The position numbers were made by a program, and so were the translations under genes. Positions 27,106 to 47,307 of a stretch of 64,000 nucleotides of DNA are shown here, piece after piece. A model generated the notes under the pieces. The model was given only the letters and a program-made list of their open reading frames with translations. It did not search any database and was not told the origin of the DNA. Numbering within the stretch: the stretch's first letter is position 1; the number at the start of each line of letters is the position of its first letter. The stretch covers positions 682,001 to 746,000 of the forward strand of contig NZ_JABTCG010000001.1 in NCBI RefSeq assembly GCF_014610845.1. The letters run 5' to 3'. This DNA comes from Maribacter arenosus (lineage in GTDB: Bacteria; Bacteroidota; Bacteroidia; Flavobacteriales; Flavobacteriaceae).

Positions 27106-28224
27106 ATGAAATTGAATATTGCTGTTTTAGGTGGCGATGGCATAGGGCCTGAAGTACTGGCCCAAGCTGTCAAATGCCTATTGGCGGTTGAGGAAAATTT
27201 TGGCCATCAATTTACTTTTACCGAAGGATTGATCGGCGCTGCAGCCATGGACCAAACAGGAAATCCTCTTCCCGATGCCACCATAGAGCTTTGTAAATCT
27301 TCCGATGCTATTTTGTTCGGCGCTATAGGCACCCCAAAATACGACAATGACCCCAATGCCAAAATTCGCCCTGAAGACGGCCTTTTGTATTTACGCAAGG
27401 AATTGGACCTTTTCACAAATATTCGCCCAGTTAAAGTTTTCCCGGCACTCATAAACAATTCTCCAATAAAAAGGAGTGTCATCACTGGAACCGATTTAGT
27501 AATATATCGTGAGCTTACCAGTGGCATTTATTTTGGGGAAAAAAGTTTAAGTGCCGATGGAACAGTGGCAACGGATTTATGTAGATATACCGAAGAAGAA
27601 ATAAGCCGCGTGGCCCATATGGCTTTTAAAGCTGCCAAAAAAAGAAAAGGAAAACTGACTTTAGTCGATAAAGCCCATGTATTGGAAACCTCAAGACTCT
27701 GGCGAAGGGTCGTTGCCGAAGTGGCTGAAAGTTATCCAGAGGTAGAATTGACCAATATGTATATTGACAATGCCGCAATATTGATGACACTAAAACCAAC
27801 TTCTTTTGATGTCATCCTGGCGGATAATATGTTTGGTGATATTCTTTCTGCCCAATGCAATGTGCTTATAGGATCATCGGGATTATTACCCTCCGCTTCG
27901 GTCGGGACCAACTATGCCATGTTCGAACCTATTCATGGTTCCTATCCACAGGCGAAAGGTAAGGATATTGCCAACCCAATTGCCGCAATTTTAAGCGCTG
28001 CCCTACTTCTTAATCATTTTGGACTTAAAGAAGAGTTTAATGCTGTTGTCGCAGCTGTTCATAAATCGTTCAGGAAAAAGATAGTGACTATGGATATCAT
28101 GGGAAGCACTAAATATGGCACATCTAGCGTTGGGGATTTTATCTCGAAAAATATTGTTGATGTTGATGACAACTTGAACATCAATGATGAGAATATAGGC
28201 TTGGGACAATCAACGATTATTTAA
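27106..28224 (+). CDS. leuB: 3-Isopropylmalate dehydrogenase (first copy)
   Basis: A 372-residue isocitrate/isopropylmalate dehydrogenase. Family motifs: LGGDGIGPEV, LFGAIGTPKYD, the RELTSGIYFGE segment, the VDKAHVLETSRLWR lysine region, NMFGDILS and the EPIHGSYPQAKGKDIANP nicotinamide loop. It has a C-terminal extension of about 20 residues relative to the copy at 45307. Its pairing with leuA suggests it is the leucine-pathway enzyme. Its stop overlaps the converging TlpA-like gene by 8 bases. Confidence 0.93.
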   Translation: MKLNIAVLGGDGIGPEVLAQAVKCLLAVEENFGHQFTFTEGLIGAAAMDQTGNPLPDATIELCKSSDAILFGAIGTPKYDNDPNAKIRPEDGLLYLRKELDLFTNIRPVKVFPALINNSPIKRSVITGTDLVIYRELTSGIYFGEKSLSADGTVATDLCRYTEEEISRVAHMAFKAAKKRKGKLTLVDKAHVLETSRLWRRVVAEVAESYPEVELTNMYIDNAAILMTLKPTSFDVILADNMFGDILSAQCNVLIGSSGLLPSASVGTNYAMFEPIHGSYPQAKGKDIANPIAAILSAALLLNHFGLKEEFNAVVAAVHKSFRKKIVTMDIMGSTKYGTSSVGDFISKNIVDVDDNLNINDENIGLGQSTII

Positions 28225-39935: not shown

Positions 39936-41045
39936 TTAATTGATGTCCTCCCCATTCTCAATTTTTACAAGGTACCCTGCAATAGCATCCTTATTGGGTT
40001 GGTCAGGAGCCCTAGTGGCAGCTATTTTTAAATGTTTTAGCGCAGTCTTGTAATTTCCTAAAGCCGAATACCCTCTGGCCAATCCAAAATCTACAGGCCA
40101 TTGTCCTTTGTTCTTCTTTGCATTCAGCTTAAAGACCTCCATGGCCTTCTGCTTTTGCCCTTGACCTATTAGTTGTCGACCATAGCCATGAATTTCAAAA
40201 ACCGTTGCATAATCCAAAGCTTCATCCATTACGGCGGCCGCCTCAGTGGTTTTACCTTGCTTAGTGAGGATCTGTGACTTGATACTGAGGTTATTAAAAT
40301 TTTTCTGACTAAAGAATTGTCCAGCTATAGTGGCCTCTATCCAACCTAAGGCTTCATTCAAATCACCTCCATTGTTCAAGGAGAAATTTGCAGCTTGTTC
40401 CCAGGTTTGTCTATTAAAACCTGGCTCATTTTCCAACTTCTGGCGTATGTCCGAAAGCACTATATCTGCAACATCTACTTCAACCTTAAAAGGAATCTTC
40501 TTTTTTCCCCAGCTTAGGGTTACAAGTGCCGAATTGGCCGTTACCTCATCAAAAGCATAGGTTAATTGTTCGGTATGTGCTGTATCCGCCATATTCACAT
40601 CAACTCGTAAGGCATCGTCTGAAGGGTTATAGAAGTAGCTTCCCCAAGCTGTATGGTTTTTTGAAAAAATAATTGTAGCCTTATCATTTTCATGAATGAC
40701 CATATGAAGTCCATACTTGCCAGCTGGCAATGTCTTCCCCTCAATTTTTACATCATCCTTAAATTTTATGACTGTATTTTCGTTTGCACCTGCCCGCCAT
40801 GGGGATTCTTTGGCAGTTCCGAATCCTAGATTGTTCATTCCATACGGAACTAGCTTCCCCCAAATTTCCCTTCCATTTACACTAGGTCTTGAGTATTCTA
40901 TTGAAATATCGGTAATGCCCACGCGTTGGGTTATTTTCGCCATTTGACTTCCCCTCGGAAGATTCAATTGTGCCGATGTACTGATAAAACAGAACATTAG
41001 AATCAAGGTCATTGCGATTGGATTTGTTGTGTACTTTTTTTTCAT
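39936..41045 (-). CDS. DUF2911 secreted protein with C-terminal TPR region
   Basis: A 369-residue exported protein. The start at 41045 gives the signal peptide (MKKKYTTNPIAM...STSAQ); the ORF start at 41075 adds ten unlikely codons. The DUF2911 domain covers about residues 45-190, with the hallmark IEYSRPSVNGREIWGKLVPYG, WRAGANENTVIKF and AGKYGLHM. Residues about 230-365 form TPR-like helices. Function is unknown, but the family is widespread and periplasmic in Bacteroidota. Confidence 0.9.
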   Translation of the reverse strand: MKKKYTTNPIAMTLILMFCFISTSAQLNLPRGSQMAKITQRVGITDISIEYSRPSVNGREIWGKLVPYGMNNLGFGTAKESPWRAGANENTVIKFKDDVKIEGKTLPAGKYGLHMVIHENDKATIIFSKNHTAWGSYFYNPSDDALRVDVNMADTAHTEQLTYAFDEVTANSALVTLSWGKKKIPFKVEVDVADIVLSDIRQKLENEPGFNRQTWEQAANFSLNNGGDLNEALGWIEATIAGQFFSQKNFNNLSIKSQILTKQGKTTEAAAVMDEALDYATVFEIHGYGRQLIGQGQKQKAMEVFKLNAKKNKGQWPVDFGLARGYSALGNYKTALKHLKIAATRAPDQPNKDAIAGYLVKIENGEDIN

Positions 41046-41204
41046 TGGATTGTTATTTAGATTCTTGCAGAACAAGGTATTAATTGTTGAATTGGAATTA
41101 ACTTACCATTATGTTAAAGTAGTCAAGGCTAATGTTAAACTATAATATCAGTTTGAACATCGTAATTTCATCGCTAATAATTTCCCTAAAAAGGCTAGTT
41201 TTAA

Positions 41205-41212
41205 TAGTTTTG
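41205..41212 (+). promoter_or_regulatory. Candidate -7 box of the leuCD operon
   Basis: TAGTTTTG matches TAnnTTTG and would start transcription near 41219, about 18 bases before leuC. No TTG was found 17-23 bases upstream. Confidence 0.4.
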
Positions 41213-41236
41213 CACGCTTAGAAGAAATAGCATTAT

Positions 41237-42652
41237 ATGAGTTCAAAAAAGACACTATTTGACAAAGTTTGGGATTCCCATGTGGTCCATCATATTGATA
41301 ATGGCCCGGATGTTCTCTTTATCGACCGGCATATGGTCCATGAAGTTACCAGTCCAGTAGCCTTCTTAGGTTTAAAAAATCGAGGGATAAAGGTTTTACA
41401 TCCCGAGAAGACCTTTGCTACGGCCGACCATAATACGCCCACCATTAATCAGCATTTACCCGTTGAAGACCCGCTTTCTGCCAATCAGTTGAAGGCCTTG
41501 GAGCAAAACGCTGAGACTTATGGCATATCGTACTGGGGATTGGGCCATGAAAAAAATGGAATTGTTCATGTGGTAGGTCCAGAGTACGGGATTACCCAAC
41601 CTGGGGCGACCATTGTATGTGGTGATTCACATACCTCTACCCATGGTGCCTTTGGGGCCATTGCGTTTGGTATTGGAACTTCTGAAGTAGAAATGGTTCT
41701 GGCTACCCAATGTATTATGCAGGCCAAACCTAAGAGTATGCGTATCAATGTTGAGGGATCGCTAAACAAAGGGGTAACGCCCAAGGATGTTGCCTTGTAT
41801 ATTATATCCCAACTGACCACTTCAGGTGCCACAGGCTATTTTGTGGAATATGCCGGACAGGCTTTTCGTGATATGACGATGGAAGGTCGAATGACCGTAT
41901 GTAACCTTAGTATTGAAATGGGGGCCCGTGGCGGTATGATTGCTCCTGATGAAAAGACCTTTGCCTATGTTCAAGGGCGGGAATTCTCCCCAAAAGGTGA
42001 GGCTTTAAACAAGGCCATGACCTATTGGGAAACCTTGTTTACCGATGAGGGCGCCCAGTTCGACAAAGAAATTACTTTTGATGCATCGAACATCGAACCC
42101 ATGATTACCTACGGTACGAATCCGGGAATGGGTATCGGAATTTCCAAATCGATTCCAACAGCTGATGTCGTTGAAGGCGGTGCAGCAACCTACCAAAAAT
42201 CGCTTAAGTATATGGATTTCCATGAAGGTGAGAATATGATTGGAAAACCCATAGATTTTGTTTTTCTTGGAAGTTGTACCAATGGTAGGATTGAAGATTT
42301 TAGGGCATTTACGGCTATCGTAAAAGGAAGGAAAAAAGCGGATAATGTAACGGCTTGGTTGGTACCAGGATCTCATAAAGTAGAGTCCGCGATAAAGGAA
42401 GAAGGTTTGCTCGACATATTGGAGGAAGCCGGATTTACCTTGCGCGAACCTGGTTGTTCTGCCTGTTTGGCTATGAACGATGATAAGATTCCTGCAGGAA
42501 AATATGCGGTAAGTACATCGAACCGGAATTTTGAAGGTCGCCAAGGACCAGGTTCCAGAACCTTGTTGGCGAGTCCGTTAGTAGCCGCAGCAGCAGCTGT
42601 CACCGGAAAAGTGACCGATCCTAGAGATCTCATGGAGATGGAAATGGCTTAG
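41237..42652 (+). CDS. leuC: 3-Isopropylmalate dehydratase large subunit
   Basis: A 471-residue aconitase-family subunit that, with LeuD, isomerises 2- to 3-isopropylmalate (and citramalate to 3-methylmalate in organisms with that pathway). [4Fe-4S] cysteines are visible in GSCTNGR and in [35 protein letters not shown] is the substrate-binding signature. It is the first gene of the plus-strand leuC-leuD-cimA-like-leuB cluster. It may serve both the leucine and the inferred citramalate route. Confidence 0.97.
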
Positions 42653-42665
42653 TGCAAAACGCAAT

Positions 42666-42693
42666 ACTTTTAACTTCAAACTTTTAACTTTAA
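42666..42693 (+). repeat. 14-bp tandem duplication before leuD
   Basis: ACTTTTAACTTCAA is followed at once by ACTTTTAACTTTAA, one mismatch apart, ending two bases before the leuD ATG. There is no Shine-Dalgarno sequence within it. Confidence 0.7.
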
Positions 42694-42695
42694 AC

Positions 42696-43292
42696 ATGGC
42701 ATACGATAAATTCAACATACTAACCTCTTCTGCGGTACCACTGCCTATCGAGAATGTGGATACCGATCAAATTATCCCGGCGCGTTTCTTAAAGGCAACG
42801 GAGCGTAAAGGTTTCGGTGACAATCTATTTAGGGATTGGCGTTATAATTCCGATAATTCACCTAAACAGGATTTTGTTTTGAACAATCCTATTTATGGCG
42901 GAAAAATCTTGGTCGGTGGAAAAAATTTTGGCTCCGGTTCCTCAAGGGAACATGCGGCATGGGCCGTCTATGACTATGGCTTTCGTTGTGTGGTCTCCAG
43001 TTTCTTTGCGGATATATTTAGAAACAATTGTTTAAATATAGGGGTTTTACCCGTTCAGGTGAGTCCTGAATTTCTTCATAAGATCTTTACAGCTATCGAA
43101 GTAGATCCCAAAACCCAATTAAAAATCGATCTTCCTGAGCAGTCTGTCACCATTCTTGCTACAGGGGAAAAGGAAAGCTTCGAGATTAATGACTATAAGA
43201 AAGCGAACATGACCAACGGTTTCGATGATATTGATTACTTACTCAACATTAAGGATAAGATCAGCGAATACGCTCAAGATACACCCCTGTAA
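42696..43292 (+). CDS. leuD: 3-Isopropylmalate dehydratase small subunit
   Basis: A 198-residue swivel-domain subunit completing the LeuCD enzyme. It begins with ENVDTDQIIPARFLK and has the active-site loop GKNFGSGSSREHAAWAVYDYGF. Length is typical. It lies 43 bases after leuC, with the AT-rich tandem repeat between them, and 30 bases before the citramalate synthase-like gene. Confidence 0.97.
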   Translation: MAYDKFNILTSSAVPLPIENVDTDQIIPARFLKATERKGFGDNLFRDWRYNSDNSPKQDFVLNNPIYGGKILVGGKNFGSGSSREHAAWAVYDYGFRCVVSSFFADIFRNNCLNIGVLPVQVSPEFLHKIFTAIEVDPKTQLKIDLPEQSVTILATGEKESFEINDYKKANMTNGFDDIDYLLNIKDKISEYAQDTPL

Positions 43293-43322
43293 GCGCAATA
43301 TTAATCATAAAGTTCCCTATAA

Positions 43323-44840
43323 ATGAATAAGCGACGGATTGAAATAATGGACACCACCCTGCGTGATGGGGAACAAACCTCGGGAGTGTCCTTTTCGGTA
43401 TCCGAAAAACTTACCTTGGCCAAATTACTTCTGGACGAGCTTAAGGTAGATCGTATTGAAATTGCATCAGCCAGGGTTTCTGAAGGGGAATTAAAGGCGG
43501 TTCAGGAAATTACACATTGGGCTGCCGAAAAAGACTATTTAGATAGGGTTGAGATATTGACCTTTGTCGATGGGGGCGTTTCGTTGCAATGGATGGAGAA
43601 AGCCGGTGCAAAAGTGCAGAACCTGTTGACCAAAGGTTCTTTGAACCATCTTACCCATCAACTTAAGAAAACACCGGAACAACATTTTGAGGATATTTCC
43701 AAAACGTTGCAGCAAGCCAGCAAACAAGGGATCAAAACCAATGTCTATCTAGAGGATTGGAGTAACGGGATGCGAAATTCAAAGGGCTATGTTTTTCAAT
43801 ACCTTGATTTTTTGACGAAACAACCTGTTGAACGCATACTTTTGCCCGATACGCTTGGGGTATTGACACATAATGAGACTTTCGAATTTCTATCCCAGAT
43901 TATCAAAAGATATCCTGATATACATTTCGATTTTCATGGACACAATGATTATGACCTAGGTGTGGCCAATGTCATGGAAGCTATAAAAGCTGGTTGCCAT
44001 GGCATTCATCTTACCGTAAACGGTATGGGTGAACGCGCAGGTAATGCACCCATGGCTAGTGTGGTCGCAGTTATCAATGATTTTCTTCCTGAAGTTGAAA
44101 TAGCTGTCAACGAATCCTCTTTGTACAAGGTCAGTAAATTGGTTTCTGCCTTTACGGGTTTTGGAATACCCGCCAATAAACCCATTGTGGGCGATAATGT
44201 ATTTACCCAAACTGCGGGGATCCATGCGGATGGCGATAGTAAAAAAGATCTTTATTTTAATGATCTCTTGCCCGAAAGGTTTGGACGTAAGCGTAAATAT
44301 GCCTTGGGAAAAACTTCTGGGAAAGCCAATATCCAAAAGAATTTACAGGAGTTGGGCCTTACCTTGAATAATGAGGAACTCAAAAAAGTTACCCAACGCA
44401 TCATTGAACTTGGCGATAAAAAGGAACGTGTAACGAAGGAAGACCTACCTTTTATCATTTCCGATGTATTGAACAGTGGTGGGTATCAGCAAAAGGTGTT
44501 TGTTAAATCCTACGTCCTAACCCACTCTAAAGGCCTAAAACCCTCAACGACAGTGGCATTGGAAATCAATGGCGAGCTGCATGAAGCCCATGCCCAAGGA
44601 GACGGACAATACGATGCCTTTATGAATGCTTTGCGCAAGATTTATAAATCAAAGAAACGGGAATTCCCTAAACTTACGGATTATGCGGTACGTATTCCTC
44701 CCGGAAGTAATTCTGATGCCCTTTGTGAAACGATTATCTCTTGGGATAATAACGGAAAGGAATTTATTACCCGTGGATTGGATTCCGATCAAACCGTTTC
44801 GGCCATAAAAGCCACTGAAAAAATGTTGAATATTATTTAA
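43323..44840 (+). CDS. Citramalate/isopropylmalate synthase family enzyme with regulatory domain (probable CimA)
   Basis: A 505-residue acetyl-CoA-dependent alpha-ketoacid synthase with a TIM barrel ([12 protein letters not shown], Arg14/Asp15) and a C-terminal LeuA-type regulatory domain from about residue 385. It is usually named 2-isopropylmalate synthase. Several stretches (EIASARVS, NLLTKGSL, NVYLEDWSNG, GHNDYDL) closely match what I remember of Leptospira citramalate synthase. The pyruvate-pocket residues known there (Leu81, Leu104, Tyr144, with Glu146) correspond to Leu79, Leu102, Tyr142 and Glu144 here. This suggests it condenses acetyl-CoA with pyruvate to start a threonine-independent route to isoleucine. 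That function is an inference from recalled residues, not an alignment. Confidence 0.85.
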   Translation: MNKRRIEIMDTTLRDGEQTSGVSFSVSEKLTLAKLLLDELKVDRIEIASARVSEGELKAVQEITHWAAEKDYLDRVEILTFVDGGVSLQWMEKAGAKVQNLLTKGSLNHLTHQLKKTPEQHFEDISKTLQQASKQGIKTNVYLEDWSNGMRNSKGYVFQYLDFLTKQPVERILLPDTLGVLTHNETFEFLSQIIKRYPDIHFDFHGHNDYDLGVANVMEAIKAGCHGIHLTVNGMGERAGNAPMASVVAVINDFLPEVEIAVNESSLYKVSKLVSAFTGFGIPANKPIVGDNVFTQTAGIHADGDSKKDLYFNDLLPERFGRKRKYALGKTSGKANIQKNLQELGLTLNNEELKKVTQRIIELGDKKERVTKEDLPFIISDVLNSGGYQQKVFVKSYVLTHSKGLKPSTTVALEINGELHEAHAQGDGQYDAFMNALRKIYKSKKREFPKLTDYAVRIPPGSNSDALCETIISWDNNGKEFITRGLDSDQTVSAIKATEKMLNII

Positions 44841-44841
44841 A

Positions 44842-44873
44842 GCGCTATTCGCTTAACGCCATACGCTATACGC
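44842..44873 (+). repeat. Left inverted repeat of the S23 element
   Basis: GCGCTATTCGCTTAACGCCA and the following ATACGCTATACGC. It is partially complementary to 45267-45298, with seven mismatches in 32 positions. Confidence 0.75.
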
Positions 44874-44895
44874 TTTCAATTTTGGTAAAAAATAG

Positions 44896-45243
44896 ATGAG
44901 GGATTATAAAAAATATAAAGTTTGGGAATTAGGTCATGAAGTTACTTGAGAAGTTTATCGCTTAACAAAAACTTTTCCAAAGGATGAAAACTTTGGTATT
45001 ACCAGTCAAATGAGAAGAGCTGCATATTCGATTCCTTCAAATATTTCTGAAGGTTGCGGAAGAGAATCTGATGCGGAATTTAAACGCTTTCTCACTATAG
45101 CCAGAGGATCTACCAGTGAACTTGAATATTTTACTATTCTTGCTAAAGATTTAGAATATATAAAAGAGGAAATTTTTTCTGAGCTAAATGATAAAGTGGA
45201 CAGAATCAGAAGAAGTATAACTAATTTAATAAACAAAATTTAA
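44896..45243 (+). pseudogene. S23/IVS-type four-helix-bundle protein, interrupted by TGA
   Basis: Read through from ATG 44896, the frame would give a 115-residue protein, the normal length of the four helix bundle (23S rRNA intervening-sequence-like) family. Hallmark segments are YKKYKVWELGHEVT, YRLTKTFPKDENFGITSQ, the motif MRRAAYSIPSNISEGCGR, FLTIARGSTSELEYF and the C-terminal helix. Codon 18 (44947-44949) is TGA where family members I recall have an aliphatic residue, so the product is broken unless TGA is recoded or a sequencing error. An internal ATG at 45010 could give a truncated 77-residue product without helix 1. The role of intact family members is not established. Confidence 0.8.
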
Positions 45244-45266
45244 CTAATAACAAACGACAACATTTT

Positions 45267-45298
45267 GCGCATAGCGTAAAGCGTTCAGCGTAAAGCCC
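45267..45298 (+). repeat. Right inverted repeat of the S23 element
   Basis: GCGCATAGCGTAAAGCGTTC and the following AGCGTAAAGCCC. Its reverse complement aligns with 44842-44873 at about 25 of 32 positions. Confidence 0.75.
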
Positions 45299-45306
45299 AA
45301 AAAAGA

Positions 45307-46362
45307 ATGAAATTAAACATAGCCCTTTTAGCAGGAGACGGTATAGGACCAGAGGTCATCGATCAGGCGGTAAAAGTATCCAATGCCATTGCCAAGAAAT
45401 TCAACCATGAAATCAACTGGAAACCCGCTTTGACGGGAGCTGCGGCCATTGATGCCGTTGGGGAACCCTATCCGGATGAAACCCATGAAATCTGTGCAAA
45501 TGCCGATGCGGTATTGTTCGGTGCCATTGGTCACCCAAGGTTCGACAACGATCCCTCTGCCAAAGTAAGGCCAGAGCAAGGATTATTGAAAATGCGACAA
45601 AAACTAGGGCTGTTCGCCAATGTGCGGCCGACCTTTACCTTTCCTTCCTTAATAGACAAATCACCGCTAAAAAGGGAACGAATCGAAGGAACCGACTTGA
45701 TCATACTCCGCGAATTGACAGGGGGTATTTACTTTGGGGAACGGGGTAGAAAAGATGGGGGCGATACGGCTTTTGATACCATGACCTACCAACGGTTCGA
45801 AATACAACGTTTGGCCAAAAAAGGGTTTGAAATGGCCATGAAACGTTCTAAAAAATTATGTTGTGTGGACAAGGCCAATGTGCTTGAATCTTCCCGACTA
45901 TGGCGTGAAACCGTACAGGCGATGGAAAAAGACTATCCCGAAGTGGAGGTTTCCTATGAGTTTGTAGATGCTGTCGCCATGCGTTTGGTGCAATGGCCCA
46001 AAGCCTATGATGTAATGATCACCGCCAACTTGTTTGGGGATATATTAACCGATGAGGCTTCTGTGATTTCGGGCTCTATGGGCTTAATGCCCTCTTCCTC
46101 AGTCGGGAGCAAGGTGTCGTTGTACGAACCCATCCATGGGTCGTACCCACAAGCGGCGGGCAAGGATATTGCGAATCCGTTGGCCACCGTATTATCCGCA
46201 GCCATGCTTTTTGAAGATATGGATCTGACCGAGGAGGCCCAAGCCATTCGCGATGTGGTCAATAAATCCTTGGCCGAAGGCGTAGTGACCGAAGACCTTG
46301 CAGATGGTGCTAAAGCCTATAAGACCAGTGAAGTTGGGGATTGGTTGGCCGCTAATATTTAA
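45307..46362 (+). CDS. leuB: 3-Isopropylmalate dehydrogenase-family enzyme (second copy)
   Basis: A 351-residue paralogue of the enzyme at 27106. Motifs LLAGDGIGPEV, LFGAIGHPRFD, the RELTGGIYFGE segment, VDKANVLESSRLWR, NLFGDILTDEAS and EPIHGSYPQAAGKDIANP are complete. Because it follows leuCD and the citramalate synthase-like gene, it may oxidise 3-methylmalate to 2-oxobutyrate, or serve both substrates as some LeuB enzymes do. It is the last gene of the cluster, before a strong terminator. The S23 element separates it from the synthase gene by 466 bases. Confidence 0.93.
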   Translation: MKLNIALLAGDGIGPEVIDQAVKVSNAIAKKFNHEINWKPALTGAAAIDAVGEPYPDETHEICANADAVLFGAIGHPRFDNDPSAKVRPEQGLLKMRQKLGLFANVRPTFTFPSLIDKSPLKRERIEGTDLIILRELTGGIYFGERGRKDGGDTAFDTMTYQRFEIQRLAKKGFEMAMKRSKKLCCVDKANVLESSRLWRETVQAMEKDYPEVEVSYEFVDAVAMRLVQWPKAYDVMITANLFGDILTDEASVISGSMGLMPSSSVGSKVSLYEPIHGSYPQAAGKDIANPLATVLSAAMLFEDMDLTEEAQAIRDVVNKSLAEGVVTEDLADGAKAYKTSEVGDWLAANI

Positions 46363-46397
46363 TATAATTGTCATTCCTGCGAAGTAGGGAAACCCAT

Positions 46398-46440
46398 AAA
46401 CCAAACCCAATGATTACTCATTGGGTTTGGTTTGTTTATT
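46398..46440. terminator. Strong bidirectional terminator after leuB
   Basis: A perfect 16-bp stem from AAACCAAACCCAATGA (46398-46413) and its complement (46418-46433) with a 4-base loop, then GTTTATTATAT. It separates the leu cluster from the converging lipoprotein gene. Confidence 0.9.
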
Positions 46441-46464
46441 ATATCAGTAAATATCTTATCATAC

Positions 46465-47307
46465 TTAATTAGGAAAAGTAATCGTTTCGTTAATTACGAT
46501 TTCATCATTCAAGGTAATGCTCAAACTTAATGTAGTGGCACTTGATTGTTCAATGCTAATGACATAATGTTCATTTGCACTAACACCTGTGTAAGTTGAA
46601 GTTACATTAATTGGAGCCCCTGCGGCACTAGTAGCCGTTATATCAATGGTCATATCGCCAATAGTTGTGCTAAAACTGCCTAGAAAGAGGTTGTCGCGTT
46701 CTACCAAATCAAAATAACCAATTCTCCCATCATCAATTATATTCCATGTTAGATTGTTGGAAATTCCATTATAATAATTGAAAACACCAGCATTTACTGA
46801 AATGTCAGGATAACTGGTTTTAACAGCATCCGATAGGTTTATAGTTGTTGCAACATCAAATAGTTTTAAAGAAAAAGCTAAAACGGTATTTTCTCCAGAA
46901 GTAACAGTGAACCCCAAAGAGTTTGTTCCATGAATAGGATTGTCAAACCTGGCACTCGTACTTACCCAATTAGACATAAAAAATCTGTAATCCCCAGGGG
47001 CCAATTCTATAAATTCAGGTAAATCACGATAGTTCGAACTTAAAACCTGATTACCTTCAGTGTCTTGTATCAAAACAGCCATGTAATCCAGAACTTCATC
47101 TAGTGTTGGCGCCTTTCCTGTATTGACGATTATGACGTCTTTAATAACCGGTTTCAACGATATTGAGCCTAGTTCCAAGGCCACTTCAATTGGTACTTCA
47201 GCCTCATCCTCATAAAGGTGCGACAAATCTTCATTACCCTTGCTACATGCCAGTATAAATAGGCTAAGGGCTAAAAGCGATACTGCATTTTTGAGTTTTG
47301 TTTTCAT
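46465..47307 (-). CDS. DUF4493-like lipoprotein
   Basis: A 280-residue lipoprotein (lipobox ILAC after MKTKLKNAVSLLALSLF). The start at 47307 is preferred to the ATG two codons earlier, because MKTKLKN is the usual beginning. The beta-sandwich body contains ELAPGDYRFFMSNW and NYYNGISNNLTWNI, which resembles DUF4493 proteins of Bacteroidota. Function is unknown. Neighbours give no clue. Confidence 0.6.
   Translation of the reverse strand: MKTKLKNAVSLLALSLFILACSKGNEDLSHLYEDEAEVPIEVALELGSISLKPVIKDVIIVNTGKAPTLDEVLDYMAVLIQDTEGNQVLSSNYRDLPEFIELAPGDYRFFMSNWVSTSARFDNPIHGTNSLGFTVTSGENTVLAFSLKLFDVATTINLSDAVKTSYPDISVNAGVFNYYNGISNNLTWNIIDDGRIGYFDLVERDNLFLGSFSTTIGDMTIDITATSAAGAPINVTSTYTGVSANEHYVISIEQSSATTLSLSITLNDEIVINETITFPN

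Follow-up and report, generated by a model that had tools for sequence, protein, structure and literature searches.

Genes of the S23 family are familiar from the intervening sequences (IVS) of 23S rRNA, in which an S23 open reading frame occurs in Coxiella, Leptospira and Brucella. An earlier note on a 64,000-nucleotide stretch of Maribacter arenosus DNA (NZ_JABTCG010000001.1, positions 682,001 to 746,000, here called the window) had instead placed a small S23 gene, framed by repeats, in the leu operon. This locus raises the question of whether the element is an insertion or a member of the operon, and of how the repeats are related to the gene that they enclose.

The S23 frame and its arms in the leu operon

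The reading frame between the cimA-like gene and leuB matched the S23 profile with 134.7 bits over its whole length, the curated cut-off being 33.8, which confirms the family assignment made in the earlier note. The frame is not open as had been supposed, since it is interrupted by a TGA codon; the portion downstream of this codon alone scored 121.9 bits. An assembly error is possible in principle, but the TGA is likely to be a real pseudogene mutation, because all other copies at the cimA-leuB site have decayed. The copy in Maribacter arenosus is turning into a pseudogene while its arms persist.

The repeats, described previously as built from ACGCTAT-like units, are inverted (42 nt, with 74% complementarity and 87% over the inner 15 nt), but they lack a fixed terminal repeat, each arm being a degenerate tandem array of 7-nt units. 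Read as its reverse complement, the 3' arm is GGCTTTA CGCTGAA CGCTTTA CGCTATG, and its consensus (CGCTTTA) equals that of the 5' arm (CGCTATA) at 6 of 7 positions. Few lag-7 arrays exist in the window and the two S23 arms are among them, while 400 kb of the same chromosome without S23 had no lag-7 excess. Weak 7-nt periodicity (18/28) without an adjoining S23 gene was also seen at 2100–2140 and 40081–40115 of the window, possibly by chance.

The predicted RNA duplex of the two arms had an energy of −33.0 kcal/mol (z −9.7 vs shuffles), compared with −5.3 kcal/mol for pairing with the arms of other elements and −10.7 kcal/mol with shuffled letters. The pairing of the window arms exceeds chance. 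Folding of the full insert, which measures approximately 457 nt, barely surpassed that of shuffled sequences (z −1.65), because the AT-rich gene dominates the signal, so that the test restricted to the arms is the informative one.

Table 1. Coordinates of the leu operon genes and of the S23 element, given as window positions.
Feature	Position	Strand	Remarks
leuC	41237–42652	+	leu operon
leuC-leuD gap with arm remnant TGCAAAACGCAATAC of sister S23 cassette	42653–42695	+	
leuD	42696–43292	+	leu operon
LeuA/citramalate-synthase-like gene (HMGL-like + LeuA_dimer; cimA)	43323–44840	+	intact, upstream of element
5' arm, ~5 degenerate heptamers (CGCTATT CGCTTAA CGCCATA CGCTATA CGCTTTC)	44842–44876	+	lag-7 array, 18–19/28 matches
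S23 / 23S_rRNA_IVP (PF05635) frame, 115 codons	44896–45243	+	profile match; one in-frame TGA, decaying
In-frame TGA, codon 18 of S23 frame (ATG at 44896)	44947–44949	+	
3' arm, inverted heptamers (GCGCATA GCGTAAA GCGTTCA GCGTAAA GCC)	45264–45298	+	lag-7 array, up to 20/28 matches
leuB (3-isopropylmalate dehydrogenase)	45307–46362	+	intact, downstream of element

The tight fit that had been claimed for the element was borne out: 1 nt separates the end of the upstream gene (44840) from the start of the 5' arm (44842), and 8 nt lie between the end of the 3' arm (45298) and the start of leuB (45307). Both flanking genes are intact, and the operon remains readable, as had also been proposed. The element does lie in a metabolic operon and not in rRNA, its neighbours being leu protein genes and Rfam giving no match in 41000–46600 of the window. 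A second isopropylmalate/isocitrate-dehydrogenase-like gene, with ~52% identity to the leuB of the operon and conserved in congeners, is located 17 kb upstream (27106–28155).

History of the cimA-leuB site and a sister cassette at leuC-leuD

Of the 11 congeners examined, 9 share an occupied cimA-leuB junction, and so does the sister genus G012. S23 fragments were found in G003, G006, G008, G010 and G012, and arms or arm remnants from which S23 had gone in G001, G002, G005 and G007. At each occupied site in the congeners the S23 gene was lost or truncated; of all copies at this site, that of the window has survived best, yet it too is interrupted. The empty site that the earlier note had suggested looking for was present in the outgroups G017 (23 bp) and G015 (4 bp), and the congeners G009 (21 bp) and G011 (26 bp) have a clean junction as well; none of these empty sites contained a heptamer array. 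The claim of an insertion therefore stands, with the amendment that the insertion is old and is decaying in all carriers. The simplest history of the site is one old insertion, after which the gene decayed, the arms were lost more slowly and the element disappeared cleanly on two occasions, because G012 is placed outside the genus on the leuB tree. A target-site duplication was not recognisable, the gaps at empty sites being too short and too diverged for comparison.

An intact S23 gene at cimA-leuB in distant genera, which the note had named as the mark of an operon member, was not found; the gene was broken or absent wherever the site was occupied, and it is at other sites that S23 elements are shared across genera. 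A heptamer hairpin of another word (TTTAAGC type) without an S23 gene lies at the cimA-leuB junction of L060 (~1400–1500) in G025, which belongs to another family.

A second junction of the same operon has a related history. An insert of 433–444 bp with the same GCG-type heptamers lies between leuC and leuD in G005, G006, G007, G008 and G010, and G004 likewise carries an S23 cassette there. The window S23 is nearest to these leuC-leuD proteins (66–67% identity, the next being 53%; SH-aLRT 98). In the window, the leuC-leuD gap holds a 15-nt arm remnant and, after it, another stretch with 7-nt periodicity, ACTTTTAACTTCAAACTTTTAACTTTAAAC. These relationships show that the cassette of the window and those at leuC-leuD are sisters, inserted ancestrally at both junctions. 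Since the S23 proteins group as sisters and the heptamers are shared, gene and arms are found jointly at two places in the operon. The leuC-leuD gap of G009 (L225; 96 bp) holds inverted GTTNATG-like heptamers without S23, an isolated remnant whose word differs from that of the GCG-type elements that congeners have there.

Heptamer arms and S23 genes beyond the window

S23 elements were detected in 25 of 40 relatives, with up to 19 matches per genome, in agreement with the mention in the earlier note of similar elements in other flavobacteria. The genome-wide search by end repeats that it had recommended failed, in that the GCG-type pattern gave one unrelated match in the Maribacter arenosus genome; the heptamer family differs from element to element. 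We collected 182 loci through their S23 genes: 72 from Maribacter arenosus and its relatives, 109 more (92 from Bacteroidota and 17 from other phyla) and the window copy. Open reading frames were called mechanically, and short contigs may conceal some shared sites. Orthologs at the same site are included in the statistical sets and were left out of the comparison of arms with S23 identity.

In the flanks of the 72 S23 genes, self-similarity at lags of 7, 14 and 21 was 0.40, 0.37 and 0.35, compared with 0.25–0.28 in control flanks 300–900 bp away from S23 genes. This periodicity was repeated in the flanks of the 92 Bacteroidota and the 17 other loci, and likewise in a pool of eight cyanobacterial plasmid loci (0.456). 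The best period was 7 in 132 of the 182 loci, 8 in 37 and 6 in 13. Median array lengths were 4.7 and 4.9 units, with a range of ~3 to 10 per arm; five units per arm is the mode and no fixed rule.

Gaps and shared CAGT words weakened a simple alignment of arms along and off the diagonal, which was replaced by consensus, permutation and duplex tests. The consensus of an element's own 5' and 3' arms agreed at 5.28 of 7 positions in inverted orientation, vs 3.65 with other elements and 3.80 in direct orientation, and the mean arm duplex was −28.9 kcal/mol for own arms vs −10.8 with the arms of others and −12.0 after shuffling. The positions conserved in both arms were identical between the arms in 91% of cases, the variable positions in 55%. 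Judged by these patterns, each element combines a conserved core word with spacer letters free to vary along an arm, a pattern to be expected if something reads the core. The word is each element's own, inverted between its two arms, and what the elements share is the period and the inverted symmetry; some arms, as in L149 and L254, are direct rather than inverted.

The position of the cassettes in their operons was also regular. In the flavobacterial set, S23 was in sense to both neighbours in 70 of 72 cases (p 3e-30 vs a null of 0.34, taken from gene-strand statistics over 400 kb of the Maribacter arenosus chromosome, and 6e-19 vs 0.5); the bias was weaker outside Bacteroidota (8/17, with a crude ORF caller). 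The median distance from the upstream stop to the start of the 5' array was 1 nt (quartiles −5 and 6), and that from the end of the 3' array to the next ATG was 7 nt (quartiles 2 and 13), in gaps with a median of 450 bp; this is the close fit that the earlier note had described for the window element. The host operons are unrelated housekeeping operons (his, suf, arg, hem, fad, leu and ffh-folD). A search for a Bacteroidota-type promoter before S23 gave 2 full matches vs 0.66 expected by shuffling, and 17 matches to the −7 box alone vs 17.2, so that these upstream regions give no sign of a promoter of its own. The sense orientation, the flush fit, the housekeeping operons and the missing promoter signal together suggest that S23 depends on the transcript of the host operon.

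Inverted heptamer arms around S23 were further present in Thiohalocapsa, Fibrobacter, Geobacter, Nitrospirota, Gottesmanbacteria and others. On cyanobacterial plasmids, heptamers adjoined most S23 genes examined (GGGAACA in Nostoc, GTGACAG in Anabaena, GGGAAAA in Geminocystis), and none were found at the S23 gene of Calothrix PCC 7716. In two of these plasmid loci, L254 and L259, S23 lies between the CRISPR genes cas6 and cas4 with heptamer arrays present; a type I-D cas1 is annotated downstream in L259, and both long arrays of L254 appear direct. S23 was not found in phage records. No rRNA k-mers were found in the S23 loci, and the heptamers of true rRNA IVS therefore rest on the Coxiella report (PMC4990558).

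Pairwise comparison of intact S23 orthologs gave dN/dS values of 0.05–0.28; in intact elements S23 is thus under purifying selection, which implies that the protein is produced. A homologue, L172, was modelled in place of the interrupted window copy. The model (pLDDT 97.1) is a four-helix-bundle that matched 2gsc with a TM of 0.94 and also matched 2rld, both of which are deposited as five chains; the next matches, with a TM of ~0.8, were Avd (4dwl) and the RNP of diversity-generating retroelements (DGR; 8ube, 8ub7). The similarity to Avd is structural only (~10% identity). A reverse transcriptase or a Y1 transposase was considered as a mobiliser and rejected. An RVT_1 gene was absent from the Maribacter arenosus genome and from the S23-rich G017, G018, G005, G008 and G030, and the two Y1-transposase-like matches in the Maribacter arenosus genome are fragments, each with a stop, unlinked to the arms.

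The arms and the protein are inherited together. In pairs of elements with non-homologous flanks, cross-arm similarity rose from a plateau of 8.6 at S23 identities below 50% to 10.95 at 60–65% and 13.1 at 65% or more, and 0 of 1000 permutations reached the observed mean for pairs with at least 55% identity. Related S23 proteins in hisH-hisA (L003, L106) and fadJ-fadA (L027, L029, L042) have AGTATNN heptamers, and CAGTNNN heptamers are common to the elements in ffh-folD and ruvC-hemN and to L101. As far as sequence comparison can tell, gene and arms are thus shown to form one unit, the arms following the S23 subfamily to other sites; this may be due to transfer of the cassette as a whole with its word, to reading of the word by the protein, or to a combination of the two. 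Movement is rare or old, because copies within a genome are never near-identical (67% for the most similar, median 32%). The sites ffh-S23-folD and fadJ-S23-fadA are common to several genera with similar flanks. Two S23 cassettes with unrelated heptamers occur in one operon, fadJ-S23-fadA-S23-acyl-CoA dehydrogenase, in G010 (L042/L082) and G003 (L094). In Maribacter arenosus, a frameshift-split S23 copy (L007/L014; C12:510243-510553) lies ~4.4 kb from the sufC-S23-sufD copy (C12:514928), the pair being two elements in neighbouring suf genes.

A cassette probably carried in the operon transcript, and the alternatives

The locus is probably a decaying cassette of the IVS type, consisting of a promoterless S23 gene and cognate arms that would pair in the operon mRNA, inserted in sense and flush with its neighbours. 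Such a cassette would be co-transcribed with the host operon, and its arms would pair in the RNA to give an imperfect stem closing the S23 gene. By analogy with rRNA IVS, the stem is a likely substrate of RNase III, which would allow the insert to be tolerated. The Coxiella IVS is cut by RNase III, has tandem GACAGAT heptamers directly before the S23 gene and measures 428–444 nt in total, and the S23 protein of Xanthomonas is a homopentamer (PMC4990558). The window element resembles the rRNA IVS in size and in holding an S23/PF05635 gene in a loop closed by complementary ends; it differs in its place between protein genes of the leu operon, outside rRNA, in having heptamer arrays as both arms with a word that varies by element, and in that S23 of intact cassettes is under purifying selection. 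A pentameric S23 may recognise the conserved core of its own heptamers, which would explain the constancy of the word within an S23 subfamily. One can speculate that each subunit takes one heptamer, 5 × 7 nt being the usual arm length. A broader proposal, which we put forward tentatively and consider somewhat doubtful, is that S23 proteins are sequence-specific rings with one heptamer per subunit, every cassette being a self-matched pair of reader and word; the cassettes would then form a bacteria-wide class of mobile elements that process RNA and settle in operons in sense orientation, with the rRNA IVS as a special case, and would be a source of many heptamer (STRR) arrays in genomes.

S23 could instead belong to the leu operon, or to operons in general, as a resident regulator, the heptamers serving as its autoregulatory sites in the mRNA without any mobility. 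Its purifying selection, its sense orientation and the ffh-S23-folD and fadJ-S23-fadA arrangements common to several genera fit this idea, which is nevertheless unlikely given that cimA-leuB is empty in the outgroups and two congeners, that all occupied copies there have the gene interrupted or deleted, that S23 sites are spread across operons of unrelated function (his, suf, arg, hem, fad, ffh) and that a sister copy occupies another junction of the same operon. The locus could also be a transposon-like DNA element of the MITE or REPIN kind, whose arms would be the ends for DNA transposition assisted by the host or by S23, RNA pairing being irrelevant. Like REPIN/RAYT systems and MITEs, the cassette is short and intergenic and has inverted ends without a transposase of its own; one gene is bracketed by these ends and moves with them, and the genome has the two Y1-transposase-like matches. 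We regard this account as rather unlikely, as the cassette carries an S23 gene and no transposase, its word differs from copy to copy so that there is no fixed terminal inverted repeat of the IS or MITE kind, its near-absolute sense orientation is unexpected from DNA insertion alone, and no target duplication is recognisable (the empty-site gaps being too short and diverged to compare).

Sense insertion is compatible with an RNA stage, and PF05635 has been described as Avd-like (PMC10053308). S23 could thus act, as Avd does, with a reverse transcriptase in trans, the RNA hairpin being copied into other operon transcripts or genes. The S23 model does share the fold of Avd, the DGR accessory protein, and matches the DGR RNP; but a DGR requires a reverse transcriptase with template and variable repeats, none of which turned up with the element, and RVT_1 is missing from Maribacter arenosus and the five S23-rich genomes named above, and the likeness to Avd is confined to structure, which makes such a route very unlikely. 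Least credible to us is that the heptamers came first, with polymerase slippage making the arrays and S23 settling or surviving beside them, functionally uncoupled. Bacterial heptamer repeats do exist without S23: the STRR and heptameric SSRs of cyanobacteria and Bacteroidetes are 7-nt tandem units, with several words per genome and mostly intergenic (PMC4679880, PMC4692102), and they resemble the tandem units of both window arms. The arms differ from them in being inverted pairs around an S23 gene, and slippage yields neither inverted symmetry nor a correlation with the S23 subfamily; moreover, arrays are absent from the empty sites and the S23-free 400 kb of the Maribacter arenosus chromosome shows no lag-7 excess.

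A decaying cassette of the IVS type thus remains the explanation that we favour. The cassette recurs in the same form, with a new word each time, in housekeeping operons of many bacteria, and it ties rRNA intervening sequences to the 7-letter tandem repeats of bacterial genomes. The function of S23 proteins and IVS has been a standing question since about 1990. For heptamer tandem repeats, polymerase slippage was the sole explanation in the literature found, and our search, which reached a minority of the subscription journals, gave no work linking S23 genes to heptamer repeats generally. The matched inverted heptamers, the flush sense insertion and the co-inheritance of word and subfamily make both the S23 and the heptamer questions directly testable. 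If the S23 ring binds its heptamer and the arm is cut, the annotation ‘four helix bundle protein’ would gain a meaning, and the operon transcripts of many bacteria would hold cleavable inserts that are invisible to gene annotation.
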